The notes under the pieces are model-generated. The model did not search any database. It was not told the origin of the DNA and saw only the letters and a list, made by a program, of their open reading frames with translations. A stretch of 64,000 nt of DNA from Arctopsyche grandis (taxonomy: Eukaryota; Arthropoda; Insecta; Trichoptera; Hydropsychidae): assembly GCF_051622035.1 (NCBI RefSeq), contig NC_135357.1, positions 16,483,001 to 16,547,000 on the forward strand. The letters run 5' to 3'. The translations under genes were made by a program, and so were the position numbers. Of the stretch, positions 1 to 63,004 are shown one piece after another (the first letter of the stretch is position 1; each line of letters begins with the position of its first letter).

Positions 1-1339
<1,339 letters not shown>

Positions 1340-3370: not shown

Positions 3371-4044
3371 AATCGTACTTAAATATACATATACATATAT
3401 ATACATATCTAGGTTTTGATTAAATAAGTTTATTTATCGTTCAGCTCTATCTCAGTACCTCCAACCCCTTTTAACTCCTTTGCCGCCGAGTCGGCAATTG
3501 TGTTATTATGTAACGCGACAAATATTCAGACGAATATTTACTTAACGCGCATAATATTTTAATCTTCCCCTCGGCGCAGGGTGCTCGGCGACATAGAGGC
3601 GTAAGTGCCACCGCCACCCAATCACGAATCTAACTCATACTACAACAACTCACACGGAGTTGATTTCCAGTTCAGCTTTCGGTCTAGGGGATGAGAGTTC
3701 GGCACTCCATCAAATGAATGAGTGAGGGTGGCGCGCAAGTGAATTTATATCGTTCGGGGGAGTATGTAGTTAAGCCCGAGCTGTATGGAAATGCGCGAAG
3801 CATTAAAACGATATACGAGTATGACAATAAGGTTTCGGGATGACGTCATAAATTGCTTTCATTCGGGAGTATGTGTGTCTGTCTGCGTGTGCGAGTACGC
3901 GTTTCACTAGTCTACATACATGCATATGTACGTATATATGTACATACATATATAAATGTATATGAAGGTAGTGTAAGGGAAAAGCGAAAGCAAATAATAA
4001 AACACTAGGCTTGGAGCTATTAATTATTTGACGCATATATACAT
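3371..4044. other. Gene-free stretch with GC-richer unique island
   Basis: About 3440-3790 is unique and richer in G and C than its surroundings (CCGCCGAGTCGGC, CTCGGCGCAGGG). It has no supported coding frame and may be regulatory. From 3890 to 3980 it holds short ATAC/TGTA runs. Confidence 0.4.
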
Positions 4045-4862
4045 ATATGGAGTAAGCATCAATGGTCGCTTCTTGAGTCACCTTCGGTTCGCAGACGATA
4101 TAGTTTTAGTAGTTCGTGATTCAGCTGACCTTCTTATCAGACTAACACAGCTGGACAGGGAAAGTAGAAAAGTAGGATTAAAAATTAACGTAGATAAGAC
4201 TAAACTAATGTTCAATAGTAATTGCATGCCTGATAGCATCCCCTTAGATGATAAACCAGTAGAAGTAGTAAATAATTATTTATATTTAGGTCAAATAATT
4301 GACATGTCTGGTAGTAAAGATGAAGAGATAAAGAGACGTATGAAATTAGGATGGAGTGCATTTGGACGGATGAATGCTGTTTTTAAATCAAAAATGCCAC
4401 TCTGCCTGAAGAAAAGGATCTTTGATCAATGCGTTTTGCCAGTGATGACGTATGGATGTGAAACTTGGACACTGAACGCCAAGATGCTAAATAAAATCCA
4501 ATGCAATCAAAGAAATATGGAACGCTGTATGCATGGCATAACGAAGAAAGACATAAAGCGGAACACGTGGGTGAGAAGTATGACATAGTGGATAGAGTGA
4601 AGAGATTAAAATGGCAATGGGCGCGTCACGTAGCTAGGAGGATGGACGAAAGGTGGACCAAAGAAGTGCTTGAATGGTACCCGAGAGAAGGCAAAAGAGT
4701 AAAAGGAAGACCGCAAGGAAGATGGGTGAACGAAATTAGGAAAATGTGCGGAATGAGAAGGATGAGTGTTGCGCAAAACAGAGACGAGTGGAAGCGTGTT
4801 GGAGAGGCCTTCATCCAGCAGTGGATGACGAATGACTGTAAATGATGATGATGATGATGTAT
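4045..4862 (+). mobile_element. RTE-type LINE, 5'-truncated RT and C-terminal region
   Basis: This is the longest retrotransposon coding piece here. A frame from about 4050 to 4588 shows the reverse transcriptase catalytic block LRFADDIVLV, then VGLKINVDKTK, YLYLGQIID, LPVMTYGCETWTL and NTWVRSM. A second frame, to 4845, continues with LKWQWARH, RRMDERWTKEVLEWYPRE, GRPQGRW and EAFIQQWM. This is the RTE (BovB-like) signature. The endonuclease and the first RT motifs are absent, so the copy is 5' truncated as is usual for LINEs. A frameshift near 4580 separates the two frames. The element ends in ATGATGATGATGATG, the usual microsatellite tail. It is non-functional as it stands. Confidence 0.93.
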
Positions 4863-51423: not shown

Positions 51424-51545
51424 AACCATTTATTTATTTATTTATTTTATTTTTACATACATACTTATTTTTATACATACATATATACAAACATATACCA
51501 GGAAGGCTTAACAGGTAAACCCCAAATGCACCTTCCTGGTTCACA
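51424..51545 (-). mobile_element. SINE 3' end, minus strand
   Basis: Hairpin arms CCAGGAAGG (51498-51506) and CCTTCCTGG (51531-51539) are followed on the minus strand by a tail ending in repeated AAAT units (51424-51446). It lies 42 bp beyond the stop codon of the peptide gene at 51587-52115, on the same strand. Confidence 0.85.
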
Positions 51546-51586
51546 TATTGATTAATACATGTAAATCTGAACTTATGAATTTATGT

Positions 51587-52115
51587 TTAATAGCATGCAC
51601 ACGCAAGTTGCAAATGGCAAAATCCTGATTGAAAGCCTTTTTCTCTACACTCTTGTACGCACTTGTACATATAACACGGTTCTCTGCGACTTATTTCACC
51701 TGAAATACATAGATATGTGTAAGTTATTGTGAATATTACATTAAATTTAAATAAAAAAATAAAAATAACCTATTGTTTTTGGGATCAGTTCTTCGTGTGA
51801 TTCATGTTCTAGGATCGAATCTAAAAGTTAAATATATTTCTGATCAATGTAATAATAAAAATAAAGTGGTAATAATATTTAAAATAGAATTTGATCTCTG
51901 ATGGTGATGGTTATTTGTATTATTGATATTGGGAAATAATGCTAAACATATACTATAAACCACTTACCAGTTTTCTTACAGGCGCAGATTTCTTTGATCA
52001 AATCTTCTTCGATATGTAATTTTTTTAATAATTTGTGACAATTTTCATCAATACACGATGACAATACATTGTTGGAAATTGCAAGAATTAAAAATACGAC
52101 AAAAATTGACTTCAT
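51587..52115 (-). CDS. Secreted tandem CS-alpha-beta (defensin-like) peptide precursor, domain 1 degenerate
   Basis: Three exons, minus strand: 51968-52115, 51770-51820 and 51587-51699, with GT-AG introns of 147 and 70 bp, both phase 1. Predicted product: 103 residues. Residues 1-20 form a signal peptide (hydrophobic FVVFLILAI, cut near VLSS). Domain 1 (21-46) keeps only Cys 21, 26, 44 and 46; the positions of the third and fourth cysteines are Leu and Ile. Exon 2 gives an acidic linker (about 50-66), and a dibasic Arg-Arg at 71-72 precedes domain 2, a possible processing site. Domain 2 (75-103) has six cysteines spaced C-x4-C-x3-C-x9-C-x5-C-x-C with S-G-F-C before the fourth, the CS-alpha-beta pattern of insect defensins with an unusually short first loop. 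The donor of exon 2 (GTTATT) is weak; skipping this exon keeps the frame and gives 86 residues. Paralogue at 62489-63004. Antimicrobial or signalling roles are possible; target unknown. Confidence 0.83.
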
Positions 52116-52216
52116 TTTGAAAATCGATTCTTAATTTTGTATACGTATGTATGTATATGTTCTGTGAACAGCTTGAACAATGGTGATCAAATAATTCCGA
52201 TTTATTTTTCTACCAG

Positions 52217-52224
52217 TTTTTATA
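52217..52224 (-). promoter_or_regulatory. TATA box of the 51.6 kb peptide gene
   Basis: On the minus strand the sequence reads CTATAAAAACTGG, about 100 bp upstream of the start codon at 52115. This is a good match to the TATA consensus and would put the start of transcription about 70 bp upstream of the ATG, if no leader intron exists. Inference from position and sequence only. Confidence 0.55.
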
Positions 52225-55097
52225 GTAGAATCGTACATATCGTGTAGATAATATCATTAATATTTTCCTCGTTTATGTTATCATATTGTGTCAGATTAAA
52301 AATATATCAGATCAAACACTTGACTTTAAATACTAAGAAAATCGTATATGTTTTAAACAACAATGATATAAAAATTCAATCAGTCTTTTGCTTTTATGAC
52401 GGTGTTAGCAGTAGCCGAAGCTTTTGTTGTGATATGACGAACTGCTTCTGAAGATTATTTACGACTGAGCATGTTTCTGCCGCAGCATGTATTCCACGGG
52501 GCACAACTGGACCTTTTGAAAAATATTTTCATTCTTTAAAATGTTTAAAATTTTTTAAACAATAAATAAATAGAGATTTTTACAAACATATAGTACATGT
52601 ATACATGTTCAATGTTTTTTAAGATTTGATTCATATCAATTTCAATAATCTGATTTTGTCATCATTGCAAAGTTTAATCATAATATATTTCACAGAAAAA
52701 GATATGTATCTAATTAAGTAAAATCAATCAATCTAAAACTTCACTATTGATTATATGTAGAGATTCGGCACTGGCGACTCGCGTTCCAAGCCCGCATCTC
52801 GATAACGATGACATGACCATGATGTGGGGTCACCATTGTTTACGCTCGTTGTGGACCCACCTCACGTTACTCATATTTTGTGTCCCATTGCGAGTCTCAT
52901 TGATAATGCGAACCCGTTGCCAGATACCATAACTCGCGAACCGTTTATTATAGACGTTTATGCGATCGGAATTTGTTCGAGCGGACCTAGCAATAGAATT
53001 TCAATTAGCTTCAGCGTTGCAGACACGAAAGGGTTGTGAGTTGTGGGGTTATTATTATATACGGACAAACCGAGAAAAAGCGGTAATCGAGAGCGCTTGA
53101 CCCTTGTACGGTTTCCGTTCAAACTGCATTTGACTCGTCTTCGTACTCACCTATGCATCGTAATGCATACATGCACTTATAGCAATAATGACGAGAAGGA
53201 AGCCCTACAATGTGTGGATAATTAAGGCGAATTTCCTGCCGGGACGGTTCGTATATTAAAAGGACAAATTAAAGAGCGGCGGAAGGGATTGTCGTAGGTA
53301 CCAAAATTCATTAATATATTAAGCTACATATAATACAAGAAAATTATATTCATTAAAATATACACATTTGTCATGATTCTGATTTCTGATTAACAACAAA
53401 ATTCTGATTCCGATTTTTGATTAACAACAAAAATGTATATATACCTATTGGGACATAAATAATTTATTTCTTAAAAAATAAGTATGGTATTATAAAATGA
53501 TTTTTCATACATAAAACACATTTGATACTGTCAGATAAAAGGTATATATAAAAAAAAATGAAGGCATAAAAGAGCTTTTGATCTTATTATGCCTTTAACA
53601 CTAGCATTAAAATAAGATAATATAATAAATAGGTAATAATAGGAAAAATCATTTGGAAAATAGTCAATGAAAAGTTATTATAATTCCAGAGACACTCAAG
53701 AGGAGGGAAACAGGGGATCTTGGACCCGTCAAATAAGAGAAGAAAAGAAAAATCAAGTTTTTCAAAAGTCACGAATTACGAGGATCATCGAGGGGCTTTG
53801 TAATGAGAAAAAAACATGAAGTTTTCTTTTTTATTTTTTAAATGAAATTTTGGAATAAAAATATATTATACTCAACCCTCCAAACCTTCCAAACTTAAAT
53901 CCTGTGTTTGCTACTAGTAATTACTTAATTGAAAAGATAAAATAATTACTCTACATAAATGAAGACTTCTTGTATACATATATTAAACATATAAATTGCA
54001 GGTAAAAAGTATGCAATTGAATCTTGGATGATTTTTTTTTGTTTTTGATAAAATATATACAGGTTCATATGAAACATTTATAATGTTGTTTTGATTTATT
54101 CGATTGTAATAAATTTTATTATGGTTACGACGATTCAAAACACGGGTATTGATACTCGACTGCGTGTCTGTATAAAATTATACGAGCATTATCGGTTAAA
54201 TCGGTGGGCATTAATTGACCGTGGATTCCGATGTGCGGCGGTCAACCAAATCATAAGTCGAAATGCATTCTTATGAAATAAAAATGAAAAATATGAGCGT
54301 AATTAATGTGATATGTTCCGTGGAAAAAATTCAATTCGTCCCTTTGGAGATACGAACTTGGACCGCCGTCGCGCCAAAGTATTCTATCAACGCGACTTAC
54401 ACTCCGTTTGTTTATTTATTTTTCGTTTTGATTGTTCGCTAAGAAACATTCGTGTATAATCATAATTAGTCGGATTCAAAGGCAAAGATTCCAAATATGC
54501 CCGGTGACGGAATCAATCATTTTTATTCGACGATCAAACATACTGGACAACGAGATAACATTGCATAAGAATGGTATTTAATTCGTGGTTTTTCACATGA
54601 CGAATTTCATTGGTCATTTTAAGTTACGAAAAAAATCAACCCGTTCAATAATGGATGTTTAAAGATTATAAAACAGAAAGGGCTCTAATTAATTCTATTA
54701 TGTACATACACATATTACAAAACGATATTTTCATACAAATCATTACTAAACTACGGGTACGTTTGTACATACATCTGTAAATGAGCGCCTCCACAGTCAA
54801 CCTATTTTATGATTATTATAAATTAATTACATATTAATCAATTTTCCATACAACACCTTTTGAATTCAATGCTTCATATTTCATCTTTCGGCTATTGCAA
54901 AACACGACACATTTACACATACAAGTACTGATTGTTGATTAATTAATATGGTGATCAAGTAAGCAGACTATCACTTTCGTTAAGGATTTAAAGACATTGA
55001 AAATTAGTTGTTTTGTTTGGGAGGATCACTTATACAGAATTGTATTGTCTGCAGAAATATTTGTATTTGAAAAATTTTGAATAAATTGGTCCGGTGC
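52225..55097. other. Gene-free; GC-richer block at 52750-53290
   Basis: Upstream of the peptide gene. 52750-53290 is unique and GC-richer, possibly regulatory. A tandem duplication of a GATTCTGATTTCTGATTAAC-like unit lies at about 53377-53434. The rest is AT-rich with no supported gene. Confidence 0.4.
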
Positions 55098-55965
55098 CAG
55101 CGATTTCCAAACTGGGAGGTGCGAACTAGTACAAAGTAGGCGCGAAAAGTTAGTTCATAACGTAAAACAATAAAATAAAATAAAATATACGTACTTATAT
55201 ACTAACTATATAAAATGTACTTATATAATGTACTTATAAATGTACTTATAAAATGTACTTATATACGTATATACGTACTTATATAACTAATATAAAATGT
55301 ACTTATATACTAACTTTCAAAACATTAAAATATGTTTCAGAAACGCAAGTAATTTTCAGCTGTTTACAAGATACTGACGGTAATACATACAAGTTAAAGT
55401 AGTAGGAATATATGTAAGCGACAGCGAACAAGGTAGTAGAAAAATGAAGACAAGAAAATACGATTTATCCTATTTATCGATGCGATTTTTTAATGCTATT
55501 TTAGATAGCTTGGAGAGACCAATGTGTTTACTCTGTATGAAAGTTTTGGCTGCAGGTGGTATGAAACCCAGTAATTTAAAACTGCAACTTGAAACTCATA
55601 GAAAATTAGATCAGTTCAATAAACAGAAGCAAACGTTTAAAAAAGAAGTTTCTATTCCATCAAATGCAATGCTAGCATTGTACAAATTTTCTTGCAGAAT
55701 CGCAAAATGAAAAAAAAACACATAAAATAGGACAAATACTAGTTTGACCAGCAGCAGCTATTGGTATGGTTGATAATGTTCGGCGAATCGTATGCGAAAT
55801 AGTTACGCCAAAAACCACTTGCTGAGCATACAATTGAAAGAAGAATTATATTATTCAGCCAATCATATTTGTATTTTAATCATTTAAAAACGTGTTTGTA
55901 TTAAAAATATAAGGAAGGGGGGGGGGGCACCAAGATTAGATGTTTTTCAAAGGAAAGCCTAGTTA
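55098..55965 (+). mobile_element. Degenerate hAT-type transposon with BED-like transposase remnant
   Basis: The left end CAGCGATTTCCAAACTGGGA, then GGTGCG, resembles terminal repeats of hAT elements of the ZBED5-like group. A G-run followed by CACCAAG near 55917-55935 resembles the matching right subterminal part, but a clear right end is not found. A minisatellite of AAAATGTACTTATATA-like units lies at 55185-55315. Confidence 0.6.
55444..55850 (+). pseudogene. N-terminal hAT/ZBED5-like transposase remnant
   Basis: An 88-codon frame starting MKTRKYDLSYLSMRF contains PMCLLCMKVLAAGGMKPSNLKLQLETH, which fits the BED-type zinc finger of ZBED5/GTF2IRD2-like hAT transposases: C-x2-C and the following Lys/Leu/His pattern. 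It continues with NAMLALYKFSCRIAK. After a stop at 55710, further family blocks appear in other frames (GESYAK, and then LAEHTIERRI at about 55830). Stops and frameshifts show it is broken. The catalytic domain is missing. Confidence 0.75.
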
Positions 55966-57221
55966 GTAGTAATATGTTTGGAGACTACTGATGTAAGCCA
56001 ATAACTAGACTTTGGCGTTGGCTTGTGCTCTTTAAATAAAAATAGGCCTCTCCATTAGTTAACAAAGCAAGACAACAAAAAAGCATGGTTGACAATAGTG
56101 AACCATTTTTTTGCTAAAAGCATCGTCCGAACACCTCTTCTAATAACTATCCAAATTAAATAAATAAAAAGCATGTACAAATTGACGCATATAACATCGT
56201 CAAGTTAAAATAATACCACAAAGCTTATCGAATACAAACTCTGAATAAAAATGATCTGATCAATACAAGTCCGATTCAATATATGATTTTGAAAATCTAC
56301 GTATGTTATATGAAGAGATTCATAGTTATGGACCTTGTACAAATTTAAAACAATCAAATTTTGAAAAAGATCAAATTTCAAAAAGTGAATCAATCTTTAT
56401 GTAAATTTTATAGGTGTTGAAACGACATGCAGGTGTTTCATATTATATGTACAGGATTTGTGTAAGAACAATATACATAATTATGTATATGAAATATAAT
56501 ACATATGTATGAAATAACTACGTCAAAAAAAACCAAGCCACTTTCAAGCGAAAGTTCAGCAACAAGATTGAATATCACTGATGCGTGATTTAAACTGGGT
56601 CGACAATAATAGCGATTTGGTGTATTATGCTAATGATCGAGCTCACTGAAGAGCTTCTGTCACAAATTCTCAACATTTTTTCGCATAGCACCCACACACC
56701 AGCACACATAGACGCGCCCGCTAAAACAATAAACAATAAAAACACGATGTCACCGCGCAAGAATGTCACATAATGTAATGGATTTTTTAACAGTGTGTCC
56801 TTTTTTTAATGTTTCGTGTTGTTGCACGTCCAACTCCTTTATATAATTTAATGTAAATTATGAGCGACGAAACAAAGGGGGGACGAGAAAGCTTCCCACA
56901 CTCGGTCACCCGTCATATCGTTTACCGGGAAACCCGAGACATCTATCCGAAGGATGTTCTCAGAGGATGCAAATACTTAATTTATGTATGGCATTTCAAT
57001 CGGAAATGTTTACTATGTGGTCACCCTCATAAATAATATTCAAATATCGTGCATTATTGAATCAGCGCCAAAAACTCCTGGCATGAAATATTCCCACACT
57101 CGTATGAATAAACTGAAAAATCAAACTACATACAACAAATATTGATTCATTGCGTCGTCATACCAATTTATGGTATTTTCGTTTTATTTTATTCACATCT
57201 AAATACATATATAAAGTACTC
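55966..57221. other. Gene-free stretch
   Basis: 56030-56130 resembles 44155-44290 and may be a transposon relic. 56830-56960 is unique and GC-richer. There is no supported gene. Confidence 0.4.
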
Positions 57222-57545
57222 AAAGAAATATGGAATATTGAATGCTCGCCATAATGGGGAGAGATAGGAAACGGAATACTTGAGTGAGAAGTATGACAAG
57301 GGTTGTAGAGTAGAGAGTGTAAAGAGATTTAAATAGCAGTAGGTGGGTCACGTAGCCAGAAGAATGGACGAAAGGCGGCCAAACAATTGCAGGAGTGGTA
57401 CTCAAGAGAATGTAAAAGGTGAAAAGTAGGCCGCAAGGAAAACGAGTGGATGAAATCAAAACAATGTGTGGGGTGGGATGGACAAGAGTTGCGCAAAATA
57501 GCAATGGATGGTGAATGACTGTAAATTATGGTGAAGATGATGATA
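57222..57545 (+). mobile_element. RTE-type LINE 3' fragment, degenerate
   Basis: The blocks GGGGAGAGATAGGAAACGGAA, GGTGGGTCACGTAGCC, ATGGACGAAAGGCGG and ATGGTGAATGACTGTAAAT match 4530-4850 of the longest copy. Frames are broken. The minus-strand frame at 57220-57504 is a shadow. Confidence 0.88.
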
Positions 57546-59237
57546 CACGAAGTATCGTCAGATAAAGTATTGATTCCATAAAAAATTAAGAACTATAGAT
57601 TTTGACTAAGGTGTGTTGAGTATTTGTCCATGGTCATGTTTTGAAACTGATTGCGGCACGAAACTTTGCAACGCTGCAAAATTGCACAAAACAGCGCCAG
57701 ACAATGAGGAAAGAATTCGCAGTTTCCGTTTCCTTCTCTCCGTCTTTATTAACCCTCCACGTACTTAAGAATTAATATACAAATGTAGCTAATGAGTATA
57801 TAGACTTTGCGTAAGGAAGTCTTACTTTTGTAGTGTAAGATTTTTTTAACATATTTCTTAAATGAAAAAGCACCAAAAATCAATTCAGAGCAGATATTTG
57901 AGATTTGATTTATATTATATACATATATTTATACAATATATACTAATGGACCGAAGTTTAAATACGATTACGATCAATTTATTCAAAAATATGTACAAAT
58001 TTATTTCAAAAGATTACAATTTGGATCATTCAAATGTGTACCTTATATATTCATGTAAGCAAAAAATGCATCGATAAGCGATAGGCATTCCCCTGATCCC
58101 CACACCCAAGCAGGAAAACATATTTCAACACGAATTTACATCGATCATTTATCATTTCTGTAATGCATCCTATACATATTAATATCGCTTGAGAACCACC
58201 GTTAACATTGTCGCACCCACTTGCATAAAATAATAGTTTAATAGCAATAATTTAGTCACATCAGTATCAGAATGTAGATCAGTGTCATAATCGCACTTGC
58301 TAACTGGAATATGAGCGCACGGATTCAGGGCGTATTCGTACGCATACAATGGCCCATATGGGTCCACACACACATTATTAACACACCCAAGTCGATGAGA
58401 ACGGATATGGACAGGTGTGGGCTTTTGTCCATCCACTGGGCTTGCCCACCGCCGTGCTTCCCGTGTATTATTCATAACACGATACGTCCATTATATGCTC
58501 GACTCATGTCCATTTGGCGTAAGCGCGCTCATCCGCGCGAAATAAGGCGCCGCGAAAAAGACGTGTGGCGAAATTCAGATCTTTTTTGTCAAACTTTCTA
58601 CTTTAAATTAAGTCGAGACAATATTAAAAATCATATTCAACGGATGTTTTGCAAAAATTCAGTCAATCTGTGCAACAAATCTTAATCGATTTCAATGTAT
58701 GTTATTCAAACTCAATATAATTCATTCACTTATGTATACTAGTAACAAATTTTGTAGAATTTGTATGTGGAATTTAATTACAATTTCAATACAAAAGGCA
58801 TACCTACATACATATGTATATCTGGAACATAGATCAGCCCTTTTTATATGTAAATAAAATTGTCATTTATTGCGCAACAATGTAACGATGACATATTCAC
58901 GAATAACAATAACGATATCAACAATAAACGACATTCACAATAACAAAATCGTTTTAAATAAAACGTGAGCGGATGGGTGCGCTCTCTCGTTTATTATATG
59001 GAATCAAATCGAATAATGATAACGACAAGTTCAATTGCGTCATAAATAGAGCTATCAATAGCTCAATTAATGACAGACGCTATTGTCGTTTTGATATGAA
59101 AAGAAAAATAAACCGTCAGTTGTAATTACAAATCAGATGAACTGGAAACATATACATATGTACTATTTAAATACAATTTATCGTTTGATTATAGTTTAAT
59201 TAATGATATAACGTTATTAATTATTATTTAATATATT
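57546..59237. other. Gene-free; GC-richer block at 58290-58580
   Basis: The block at 58290-58580 is open on both strands for more than 90 codons, a consequence of composition; no domain is recognised. It may be regulatory. The rest is AT-rich. Confidence 0.4.
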
Positions 59238-59985
59238 ATTTATTTATTTATTTATTTTAAACAGACCATTGTGGCATAACAGGAATTCCTAAAGCGCCAC
59301 AATGGTCAAAAAAAAAATATAACACAAAAAAGAAAAAAAAAAAAACAAAATAGCAATAAAACATAAACATAAATACATTCATACATAAACATAAAAAATA
59401 GCATTTATAATAACAGATAAAGTAAAAATATCAAATAAAATACAGCATAAGGAATGCCTTGCACCTACAGCCAGTTTCAATAAATATGTAAGAAACAACT
59501 ACAAATACAAAACATCCCTGTAAGGCCCAAATGGAAGAGAGTTAATCAAAATTTCACTCATAAATCACTATCAATCATGAAAACAATGATGAGCGCAGAC
59601 TACCAGATAAATGGGTTAGGGTAATTTCCGACAATTTACGCTGACTAAGGTGGAAAATATCACATTCAGTCTCGGCAGCAACGATTTCATTAAGAAGTCG
59701 GATAGCTCTTGGAATAGGAGCCATTCGAAAAAGGACTGTGCGGGCAGGAGGTACAGCCAGCAAATGATGATGTCTACCACGCACATAGTGATTAGGGACA
59801 TAAAGTCCCAACTGCTCCAGCAACAACGGGCATGACGTATTACCACGTAAGAGCAGGAGAACGAAACGAATTAATGAGAAGTTTCTCCGAAGTTCAAGGG
59901 AATTATACCCAAGCATGCCCAAAAGGAAAGGAGTGGGGTAGAGATAACTAGTAATTGATAAAGGCTTTGTATTTATCTCCAGTAC
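59238..59985 (-). mobile_element. LINE 3' region with RT C-terminus and perfect terminal hairpin
   Basis: A minus-strand frame between about 59955 and 59600 gives PFLLGMLGYNSLELRRNFSL, then CPLLLEQLGLYVPNH and ARTVLFRMAPIPRAIRLLNEI, the C-terminal region of jockey/I-like non-LTR proteins. The 3' UTR ends in a perfect 12-bp hairpin (GACCATTGTGGC at 59264-59275, GCCACAATGGTC at 59296-59307) and a tail of AAAT units. The RT core is absent. Tail-only relatives lie at 24540 and 36797. Confidence 0.85.
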
Positions 59986-60865
59986 CTTTGTATCTCTTCT
60001 GGTGCTCCTCAAGGTTCCCACTTGGAACCGCTATTATTCAGTATCTTTATAAAAGGCTTAGTAGCTCGTCTCAAGTTTAATTGTCTACTATACGGTGATG
60101 ATCTGGAAATAATTGGGTTAAGCTACGAATTGACATCTGCGAGTGGAGTAGCGAAAATGTTCTGCTCTTAAATACCTCCAAATGTTTCTCAATAACACTC
60201 TCTTAGAATAATATACTAATTTATTCCCTTCTTAAGTTTTCTCTATCGGAACGCTAAACCTTTTAAATGACCACATACAGCAATTCTACTGTAATGCAGT
60301 TTTAGTTGCAGTTAGCAGACTGGATTAAACTGGACACATTACTAGTTTAAAGGTTCAAAATGTTTCATGAAATATTTATCTTACAAATTTGGCCTAAAAG
60401 GAACGTCAATAAACTATGATAGACTTAGATATTTCAGTAAAGATAGTTCATCCAATCAAAGAAAGGTGTCTGATCTTATGCTATTATGTAAGATCTCGAG
60501 ATAATTTATATGTACATATATGTACGCATACGTTTTGGAGAATACTGATTTTAATGCTAAGACAAATAACACTAGATCCACCAATCTTTTTTCTTTACCT
60601 TTATGCAATAACAATATTTCATTCAACAACACAATTACCCGAATTTGCCGTCTTCACGATAGCATACTCAAGTGCCCCGACATATTTTCAAATAGCATAA
60701 AGGCTTGTGGTTATTTGAGTTTTTATTTGTCAATTTTTATTATTGTACTGCATTTAAATTTTAGCATATGATACATACTGTTATGGGGTGCATACATATT
60801 GTCATATTTTTTATATTCTTTTCTGTATGTACTCTGTTTGTATGCTAATTTAATAAATAAAAAAT
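59986..60865 (+). mobile_element. Jockey-type LINE RT remnant
   Basis: The frame starts with SSGAPQGSHLEPLLFSIFI, then LLYGDDLEIIG, where Y-G-D-D stands for the usual F/Y-A-D-D catalytic box. A frameshift follows, then CEWSSENVLLLNTSKCFSI, and much later STNLFSLPLCNNNISFNNTI and ITRICRLHD. The order fits jockey-like elements. It lies back to back with the previous LINE, so two insertions meet at about 59985. Confidence 0.85.
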
Positions 60866-62450
60866 AATAATTAAATAACAAACTTACATATATACTTAAG
60901 TTAATCAATGAACTTTTTCTGAATGATATTGTGGTTTCTAGTAATTTGTATAATTTTGAACTGCCTTAAACTCTATGGGATTCCGTTCGATTCGGTTACA
61001 TCTCATAACCGGAACTGGTCAATTTGAATGTCAGTTTGAATGTCAGTTTGTTTTGTTCAGTCGGTGAATTTAATTTAGACGCGGTGATTCTAGCGTTTGT
61101 TATGCAAATAAATTATAGCCGGACGCTAAACAGAACAAACTATATGTATGTATGTATGTATGTATGTAGAATATATTAAACGTGCGCAAGTTTGTAGCGA
61201 ACTTCAGTTATTGTAATCGAGTTTTTTTTTTGATTACATTATGCAAATTCATCAATGGATATTTCGTCCTATAAATAGAACAAGCTAAAATCATAGAACA
61301 AGCTAAAAGCATCGGCTAAAAGGATTGAATAGGAAAGTGTGTTTGTATCGGAATTAGTAATTTTCCGTGTAATTATGGCAATAGTAGTTGATCCCTGCGC
61401 TGATGATGTCTGATTGTCATTCCAATAAGAGGAATAGCGGTAATGAGCCTTCAGTACAGGGAAACACAACCTGTTCTTAATTAAAAATAAAAAATAAATT
61501 TCATTTCAATTATATAACGAAACAATATTTAAAAATTACTACATAGATAGTGATTTTAAGGTACAAACTTTTATTGTGAATATGGCAGTAACACTTTCTA
61601 TAAAACAATGTTCAATGGAATACGCTTGTTATTTAGTTTATTTTTAAAATTTGTTTTATTATAAACATAGGTCTAGTTCTGCCTGATGGCATTATTATTA
61701 AATTTTATGATTATTTCTTTGTAAAATAATTTAAATAATTTTTTTTGAGATATTCAAATCTATATGAACTTTTTGAAATTCGATTTAATGACAAGGTTGC
61801 CTGCAACCGTACGAATCACAACAGTTGAATGAGCGAACCGGCACCGGTGTTCCGGATCCAGACCACAAAACCAAAAACCGAAACGGGGCGAACCACAGAC
61901 CAACCTGGTTTTCAATCAAACTGCATCTGCAGTGCCCTTATTGGAGAGCCACTGCCGCTCATTAGGAACGACTGTCACTCTAAAACACCCCATGTTCATC
62001 GCAGACAATCAGATTAACACTAAAAATAATTAGATATTTCGTCAATTTATATTGCACAGTACGACCGTACAAATAAATGTTAATATAAACGCACAGGTAG
62101 CCAATGAGCAAATTGTGTACTTTAGCAAATTAAATAGACAAGATAATCCGTTTAGATGCATTTTCCTATTGCCCGGAAGTGCGGTGTATTATGTGAGCGT
62201 GCATTTAATGCACAAAGCGCCCGCAGTTCGATTGCAACACACTGAAAATCTAATCAAAACTGATTTGATTGTGCTGTTTATCCTACTGTTCACTGATGTG
62301 ACTGATCGCTTTGTACAATCAGTCGTTGATTAGTCAACGATCGTCAGTTCGACGATCAACAATTTTGTCGACAGATTTCAAGCACAAAATTCACTTTTAC
62401 AACAGGAATCTTTTTTAAATTGATGAAAAAAAAAAATAAGGAATGCCATT
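60866..62450. other. Gene-free; GC-richer blocks
   Basis: A GTAT tetranucleotide run lies at 61141-61167. 61790-62010 and 62100-62330 are unique and GC-richer, with open frames of 62 and 93 codons and no recognised domain. Confidence 0.4.
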
Positions 62451-62456
62451 TTTATT
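62451..62456 (-). terminator. Polyadenylation signal of the 62.5 kb peptide gene
   Basis: AATAAA on the minus strand, 33 bp beyond the stop codon at 62489-62491. The short 3' UTR is typical of small secreted-peptide genes. Confidence 0.6.
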
Positions 62457-62488
62457 TTCAAATCGATTCAAAAGCAAAAGATCATTAA

Positions 62489-63004
62489 CTAATATTTAAT
62501 GCAATAACATGTCTGGAAGGAACAGTAGCCACTCTTGTATCCGGCCATTCTGCAATTGTAGGAGCATTGAAAATCATAGCAAATTCTAGGTAATATTACG
62601 GTTTTCAATAAATTTTGAACCGGTTCATCTGAAATAATACAAATACATTAGATAATTGTTGATTATATTGAAAGTTTACAATGAAAAAAAAATATTCATA
62701 CCTGTAATAGCGGAGGGGTTTTCATCTACTACAGTAGGAGCAATATTTACTTGTTTAATGTTGTCCAATTTAATTCCTAATTTATAAAATATTTTATTAA
62801 TTCATATATGGTAAAAAAGAATGACTATGTATATTCAAATAACATGTATTTACCAGATATGTAGCAGTAGCATTCTTCTCCTTCGCAGTTTCCAGAGTCG
62901 AAATGCATTTCCCGGCACTCCCGATCGCAAACGTCATTGTAACACACGGCCAAAACGGCAACCAAGATGGTAAATAGCAAACATATAAACAAATGACACT
63001 TCAT
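62489..63004 (-). CDS. Secreted precursor with two complete CS-alpha-beta (defensin-like) domains
   Basis: Three exons, minus strand: 62854-63004, 62702-62776 and 62489-62628, with GT-AG introns of 77 and 73 bp, both phase 1. Predicted product: 121 residues. Residues 1-20 are a signal peptide (FICLLFTILVAVLAV). Domain 1 has Cys at 21, 26, 30, 40, 45 and 47; domain 2 at 92, 97, 101, 111, 116 and 118. Both read C-x4-C-x3-C-x9-C-x4-C-x-C with S-G-x-C at the fourth cysteine, as in insect defensins but with a first loop of only four residues. By analogy the disulfides would be 1-4, 2-5 and 3-6. Exon 2 encodes a linker of about 25 residues. Each domain sits in its own exon, so duplication of an exon explains the layout. 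Codons, splice sites, TATA box and poly(A) signal are all in place. Mature products could be one double-domain peptide or two cleaved ones. I know of no named family with this exact architecture, and function is not inferred beyond an immune or signalling guess. Confidence 0.88.

Follow-up and report, generated by a model that had tools for sequence, protein, structure and literature searches.

The window analyzed here, a stretch of 64,000 nucleotides of the Arctopsyche grandis genome, contains two related genes on the minus strand, termed gene A and gene B. In gene A, exon 1 (51968..52115) encodes a signal peptide, recognized by eye, and domain A1; exon 2 (51770..51820) is a linker exon of 51 bp; and exon 3 (51587..51699) encodes the end of the linker, domain A2 and the stop codon. 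Gene B has the same plan: exon 1 (62854..63004) encodes a signal peptide, again recognized by eye, and the acidic domain B1; exon 2 (62702..62776) is a linker exon of 75 bp; and exon 3 (62489..62628) encodes the linker end, domain B2 and the stop codon. The linker of each protein is thus made of the 51- or 75-bp exon and the 5' portion of the last exon, and both linker exons are of phase 1-1 and skippable in frame. These models come from a search over minus-strand splice sites, which gave one solution per gene, and all four introns are GT-AG and of phase 1. The gene A protein is identical to NCBI entry LOC143909853 and the gene B protein to LOC143909465 (both A. grandis; 100% identity over 100% of the length). 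The coordinates and the common exon plan proposed in a first-pass annotation of this DNA are therefore exact, whereas its suggestion that the genes could escape standard annotation is incorrect, as both proteins are already NCBI entries.

B1 and B2 share the cysteine framework C-x4-C-x3-C-x9-C-x4-C-x-C and A2 has C-x4-C-x3-C-x9-C-x5-C-x-C, so that, as originally noted, a six-cysteine framework is common to three of the four domains (five of six when gene C, described below, is counted). A1 has four cysteines (C-x4-C-x17-C-x-C). The pattern C-x4-C-x3-C-x7-G-x-C-x4/5-C-x-C occurs three times in the window and in none of 150 equally long windows generated by a first-order Markov model. A looser pattern detects the same three domains and no other across the surrounding 264 kb, once matches made of TG microsatellite and the like are removed by rule. 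The exons are short and the window looks gene-poor, as would be expected if the gene models were spurious products of chance open frames, but the Markov comparison, the identical NCBI models and the related gene C on another contig make this explanation most improbable: genes A and B are real.

The two domain positions differ in charge. Within its cysteine limits, domain 1 is negative in all three genes (A1, -2; B1, -6; C1, -3), although A1 becomes neutral once the following Lys-Lys is counted. Domain 2 is net positive in all three (B2, +2 with its tail included). Basic residues precede domain 2 in each case: in exon 3 of gene A, Arg-Arg and two further residues lead to the first cysteine of A2 (SRR-EP-C), in exon 3 of gene B, a single Arg and one residue lead to that of B2 (PR-I-C), and the corresponding site in gene C is QR-G-C.

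Similarity between domains was assessed by fixing the cysteines, shuffling the other residues 5000 times and counting the shuffles that reached the real score. By this measure, the three six-cysteine domains of genes A and B are alike beyond their cysteines (A2/B2, 0; A2/B1, 6; B1/B2, 25 of 5000), and A1 resembles none of the five other domains beyond chance, the best result being with B1 (335 of 5000). The whole A and B proteins match by BLASTP with E 8e-9 in a single comparison. A recent duplication of A and B was considered and rejected, as a blastn comparison of their regions found five matches, 13-21 bases long and each with E 0.31.

AlphaFold2 predicts a helix-strand-strand order with middling confidence for B1 (helix 23-32, strands 37-41 and 44-49), A2 (helix 77-86, strands 92-95 and 99-102) and B2, and two helices with low confidence for A1 (pLDDT blocks of 43-53). 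By framework and predicted fold together, A2, B1 and B2 fit the CS-alpha-beta class, and C1 and C2 fit it by sequence. The first-pass description of two tandem CS-alpha-beta genes thus stands for gene B, whereas for gene A the view of a full tandem of two such domains was rejected on account of the four cysteines and helix-helix model of A1.

Among solved folds, those closest to gene B belong to scorpion short toxins, to nasonin-1 and to drosomycin, and a profile of A plus B finds its best PDB matches in two defensins, ARD1 (E 0.004) and heliomicin (E 0.022). In Pfam, Toxin_3 (PF00537) passes its cut-off of 21.5 bits with the whole B protein alone (24.4 bits; best stretch 21-48) and is absent from the results for A and C. 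For PF01097 (cut-off 20.4), the exon score is above the cut-off for C2 (21.0) and below it for B2 (19.3), and the whole-protein scores are 8.5 for A, 16.4 for B and 16.5 for C. NCBIfam returned actinodefensin alone, at 20.7 and 11.2 bits, far under the cut-off of 65. Cobatoxin 1, BmBKTx1, nasonin-1, termicin, drosomycin and heliomicin/ARD1 are known as single-domain peptides and share the fold and core spacing seen here, but their sequence likeness to A and B is weak (best profile E 0.004).

Elsewhere in the window, a scan of 10 long frames, out of 313 frames of at least 55 aa, gave a single piece above its Pfam cut-off, a reverse transcriptase remnant unrelated to A and B, and there was no Rfam match in the window. 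In the 1.2 kb upstream of A or B, consensus patterns gave no kappa-B site against about 0.1-0.2 expected, so that the zero count is uninformative; TATA-like matches were under expectation, and GATA-like matches numbered 4 and 6 against 4.3 expected.

A third two-domain gene, gene C, is probably present on contig C9, on another chromosome. It has the domain order of A and B and a predicted phase-1 junction. Four candidates for a linker exon were found in gene C, none convincing, and exon 1 would be joined straight to the last exon in phase 1. Gene C offers some independent conservation of the cysteines and, given this predicted splice, of the intron phase. The search for further copies proposed in the first-pass annotation gave this one probable gene on another contig and none in the 264 kb around A and B.

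For all six domains, the best partner is the domain at the same position of another gene, and the shuffle test gives 4 (B1/C1), 66 (B2/C2) and 0 (A2/B2) of 5000 for same-position pairs, against 1944 (B1/C2), 808 (B2/C1) and 2034 (C1/C2) for cross pairs. This suggests that the two-domain precursor is probably older than the split of A, B and C. The positional order is not clean: likeness also holds for A2/B1 and B1/B2, and the score of A2 is higher against C1 (57) than against C2 (34). Genome searches were run exon by exon with A, B and C, and the best candidates alone were scored. The gene A search (E <= 5, best six candidates) returned neither B nor C, and the searches with gene B (E <= 1) and gene C did not return A among the best four candidates each, so the kinship of A to B and C is faint. 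The gene A query gave one extra place, with E 4.6 and an internal stop, which was taken for chance. No further family member was found within 264 kb or among the scored candidates of the three genome queries, and three protein searches of limited sensitivity gave no relative outside A. grandis.

The same genome contains canonical prodefensins at C11:2183813-2183905 and C6:28405365-28405457. Their last exon has a phase-1 acceptor, an RSKR site and one mature domain, so that, as in the tandem genes, a phase-1 intron lies ahead of the mature-domain exon. Exon 1 in the predicted models would encode a signal peptide and an acidic propeptide (net -4 and -6 for hand-chosen stretches), in the place where the tandem genes carry their acidic domain. 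The canonical SKR-AT-C and the gene A SRR-EP-C both consist of a dibasic site, two residues and the first cysteine. The canonical prodefensins differ in having one domain, the RSKR site and a C-x6-C first loop. A2 and the C11 defensin are alike beyond their cysteines (0 of 5000 shuffles), whereas C2 is no closer to the C11 and C6 defensins than shuffled sequences are (1780 and 1297 of 5000). The C5 domain has a net charge of -1.

Caddisflies (Trichoptera) and Lepidoptera are sister orders within one superorder. The X-tox proteins of moths (Spod-11-tox, Gall-6-tox and others) are, like the proteins here, secreted and built of tandem CS-alpha-beta motifs, and their published account describes them as restricted to Lepidoptera, with 3 to 11 'cationic' domains of the consensus C-x4-C-x3-C-x7-G-x-C-x3-K/R-C-x-C, and treats their role and the driver of their rise as unsettled (PMC2728511). 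Induction in haemocytes, with no antimicrobial activity, is among the criteria for X-tox. The X-tox spacing is exact in B1, B2 and C2, exceeded by one residue before the next-to-last cysteine in A2 and C1, and missing in A1; the proteins here differ in having two domains, the first of them acidic. In the wasp Nasonia vitripennis, nasonin-2 and nasonin-6 are described as carrying several defensin domains per precursor, nasonin-6 with one exon per domain and phase-1 introns (PMC2853521), an arrangement also seen in A and B and, with its predicted splice, in gene C. Nasonin-2 and -6 have four to five repeats of short n-loop domains against two domains here, and they differ from A and B in the separate linker exon of the latter; in the nasonin type, a phase-1 intron directly follows the signal peptide, whereas in A and B the signal peptide shares exon 1 with domain 1. 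Given such multi-domain precursors (PMC2728511; PMC2853521), the initial view that a two-domain precursor is unusual for insects is too strong.

The reading favored here, for which the chances seem about even, is that A, B and C encode two-domain defensin precursors with the acidic domain 1 as pro-domain and the basic domain 2 as effector. The family would descend from a defensin gene of two exons, after a second CS-alpha-beta unit had taken the place of the acidic pro-segment in exon 1 or been added to it. The two-domain protein would be secreted, and domain 1, a folded or half-decayed acidic pro-domain, would hold domain 2, with its net positive charge, inactive while the protein is secreted; a cut at the basic residue immediately ahead of domain 2 might then free this putative effector of a defense-type precursor. 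The RSKR site, phase-1 intron and predicted acidic propeptides of the canonical defensins argue for a defensin precursor, as do the likeness of A2 to the C11 defensin, the equal domain order and phase-1 junction of gene C, and the fold models with their ARD1/heliomicin matches, and the consistent signs of charge at the two positions argue for a pro-domain. On the other side, a single Arg ahead of domain 2 in B and C is a weak cleavage signal, and B1 has a complete framework and predicted fold that a mere pro-domain would not need. The charge argument is weakened by the neutrality of A1 with Lys-Lys, by the small charges and by the number of genes, since three do not suffice for a test. The uneven positional order, the unlikeness of C2 to the C11 and C6 defensins, the negative C5 domain, the lack of relatives in the other species searched and the failure of the A searches to reach B and C, and of the B and C searches to reach A, also count against this reading.

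A possible, if somewhat unlikely, alternative is that the two domains stay joined as one tandem protein of the X-tox kind, which would not be a source of free defensins and might represent a stage from or beside which X-tox arose. Spod-11-tox has been concluded to act undivided and not to supply free defensins. The cysteine and glycine spacing of the consensus equals that of B1, B2 and C2, but spacing by itself can converge, and Lys or Arg before the next-to-last cysteine, as read from the letters, occurs in none of the six domains. The variable X-tox repeat number, the gene B linker with no dibasic site and the in-frame skippable linker exon fit a joined protein, whereas the dibasic site of gene A is placed as in canonical defensins and the first domains are negative, unlike the 'cationic' X-tox domains. 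A search with the tandem query gave 25 candidates, none with E <= 10 and none an X-tox, by a word-based method of low reach. Convergent tandem duplication in caddisflies, with a non-immune role (for example as an ion-channel ligand or as a peptide carried in a secretion or in silk), seems distinctly unlikely: nasonin-2 and -6 show that phase-1-intron repeats arose in another order, and the nearest folds include short-loop scorpion potassium-channel toxins as well as nasonin-1, but a common fold says nothing on function, and the same-phase canonical defensins of this genome point to a defensin origin.

A further proposal, doubtful at present, is that the two-domain precursor dates back to the lineage common to caddisflies and moths. 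X-tox would then not be confined to Lepidoptera: its source would be a prodefensin of two domains, the first a folded acidic pro-domain, which caddisflies retain, and the moth rosary of domains would have begun self-inhibited. Tandem CS-alpha-beta precursors as such are already known from moth X-tox and nasonin-2 and -6; what is new is an acidic, cysteine-rich domain in the propeptide place. The genes offer a simple two-part molecule in which one CS-alpha-beta unit can be tested as the pro-domain of another. If convergent, they would add a further case, beside the nasonins, of an exon-based route to multi-domain defensins. As a gene family of Lepidoptera's sister order, found beside same-phase defensins, they are a specific candidate for the form from which X-tox started, and these two-domain caddisfly genes may help to reveal the origin of the tandem defensins of moths and wasps.

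The window (G000:C3:16483001-16547000; genome 476 Mb) carries two genes for tandem defensin-like peptides, both on the minus strand and 10.4 kb apart, in the caddisfly Arctopsyche grandis, which taxonomy places in Trichoptera, Hydropsychidae, inside Amphiesmenoptera. Both genes are real and are annotated as uncharacterized; the spliced products of gene A (51587-52115; 103 aa) and gene B (62489-63004; 121 aa) are identical to the NCBI 'uncharacterized protein' entries LOC143909853 and LOC143909465, respectively. Three coding exons (148, 51 and 113 bp in gene A; 151, 75 and 140 bp in gene B) are separated by GT-AG introns of phase 1. Exon 1 encodes a putative signal peptide, called by eye rather than by a predictor, and domain 1 (A1 or B1), and exon 3 encodes the linker end and then domain 2 (A2 or B2). 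The linker exons (51770-51820, 51 bp; 62702-62776, 75 bp) are symmetric 1-1 and their removal adds no stop; thus, skipping would shorten the linker with the frame intact. The full six-cysteine motif occurs three times in the window and in 0 of 150 Markov windows, and A1 has only four cysteines. A looser motif yielded no additional copy across 264 kb, after simple-repeat matches were dropped.

Just 3' of gene A lies a 73-base dispersed repeat (51500-51572) with near-complementary ends (CCAGGAAGG ... CCTTCCTGG) and, from the best 40 of 143 candidates scored, at least 39 further genomic copies of 91-100% identity. The left end of the window (1-1006) is a perfect (TG)503 microsatellite, and a reverse transcriptase remnant occupies 4001-4585 (Pfam RVT_1, 31.4 bits; cut-off 29.6).

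A genome-wide search with gene B recovered, besides the three exons of gene B itself, a single additional locus (C9:27573831-27573977; E = 0.004). It encodes a signal-like peptide and a six-cysteine domain, and a second six-cysteine domain lies 1 kb downstream on the minus strand. Exon 1 of this gene C ends in phase 1 and would be spliced in frame to the phase-1 acceptor preceding domain 2; the interval between these exons contained no convincing candidate for a linker exon. Gene C as query matched itself and gene B (exon 1 against exon 1, E = 0.016; last exons, E = 2.6, which alone is not significant). Gene A was absent from the matches to gene B (E ≤ 1) and gene C (E ≤ 5), and, when used as query, it matched nothing but itself and one locus that looks like chance, missing both B and C. 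The evidence that A and B are related is therefore pairwise BLASTP (E = 8e-9, single comparison), the shuffles described below, the common exon plan and their closeness in the genome.

Domains were compared with shuffles in which cysteines were fixed and other residues permuted (15 non-independent pairwise tests, units of 26-28 residues). Real scores were reached in 4 (B1/C1), 66 (B2/C2) and 0 (A2/B2) of 5000 shuffles, indicating likeness beyond cysteines, whereas B1/C2 (1944), B2/C1 (808) and C1/C2 (2034) are not alike. The top-scoring partner was the same-position domain of another gene for all six domains, that of A1 (B1) being not significant (335 of 5000). Counter to a clean split by position, likeness also extends to A2/B1 (6) and B1/B2 (25), and the score of A2 against C1 (57; 155 of 5000) exceeds that against C2 (34; 789 of 5000). 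Judged from these sequences, the two-domain state probably predates the split into three genes.

The arthropod defensin profile PF01097 (curated cut-off 20.4) matched six loci in the genome (E = 0.004-0.8), five of which exceed the cut-off: a pair on C11 with nine kb between them, and one each on C6, C5 and C9, the last being domain 2 of gene C; the sixth, domain B2 on C3, scored just below it. Matches were found in 3 of 14 control genomes, none above the cut-off. The single-domain loci are C11:2183813-2183905, C11:2192621-2192713, C6:28405365-28405457 and C5:5061318-5061386, and the first C11, C6 and C5 loci were inspected in detail. At the first C11 locus and on C6, a phase-1 intron is followed by RSKR, ATC and one six-cysteine domain, and the predicted upstream exon encodes a signal peptide and an acidic pro-segment; with these predicted first exons, both genes look like ordinary prodefensins. 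The C5 match has a longer first loop. Against the C11 domain, A2, B1 and B2 are alike beyond cysteines (0, 5 and 13 of 5000 shuffles), C1 is less alike (66), and C2 (1780) and A1 (2368) are not.

In the two canonical genes of this genome (first C11 locus and C6), the acidic segment of the predicted exon 1 has a net charge of -4 and -6 (hand-chosen stretches); a phase-1 intron and then a dibasic site precede the mature domain, which is basic (+2, +3). In the tandem genes, domain 1, in exon 1, has net charges of -2, -6 and -3 within its cysteine limits (0 for A1 if the next two Lys are counted), and domain 2, downstream of a phase-1 intron, is +1 in each. This parallel in charge and position suggests that domain 1 is most likely an acidic pro-domain and domain 2 the effector. 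Between a basic residue and the first cysteine of domain 2 lie one or two other residues (SRREPC, LPRIC, DQRGC); cleavage would occur at this basic residue, the acidic domain 1 might be inhibitory and domain 2 might have antimicrobial action. In the chief competing reading, the protein would remain intact and serve a function other than killing, by analogy with Spod-11-tox, a moth protein of the tandem X-tox type; its authors found it in fragments but no active defensins among them, and favour a non-killing function (PMC2728511).

The X-tox consensus spacing is that of B1, B2 and C2, but the K/R preceding the next-to-last cysteine is absent from all six caddisfly domains, and X-tox domains are cationic whereas the first domains of A, B and C are not (PMC2728511). 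The genes are therefore not classed as X-tox. A kinship search with a tandem query of X-tox-like size gave 25 candidates, none with E ≤ 10, which is weak evidence because the method requires exact matches of five-residue words. Among solved structures, a profile of A and B matched the defensins ARD1 (E = 0.004) and heliomicin (E = 0.022) best. Their lepidopteran origin is suggestive only, Archaeoprepona demophon being a butterfly. This species is the source of ARD1 in its structure record, and heliomicin comes from the moth Heliothis virescens (PMC2728511). Nasonin-2 and nasonin-6 of a wasp also combine tandem domains with phase-1 introns (PMC2853521), so that convergent origin of the caddisfly tandem genes is a live option.

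No literature on caddisfly tandem CS-alpha-beta proteins was found in a search with most subscription journals outside its coverage. Trichoptera is the sister order of Lepidoptera, which bear X-tox. Tandem CS-alpha-beta proteins are already known; what is new here is a two-domain variant whose first unit is acidic, found in Trichoptera.
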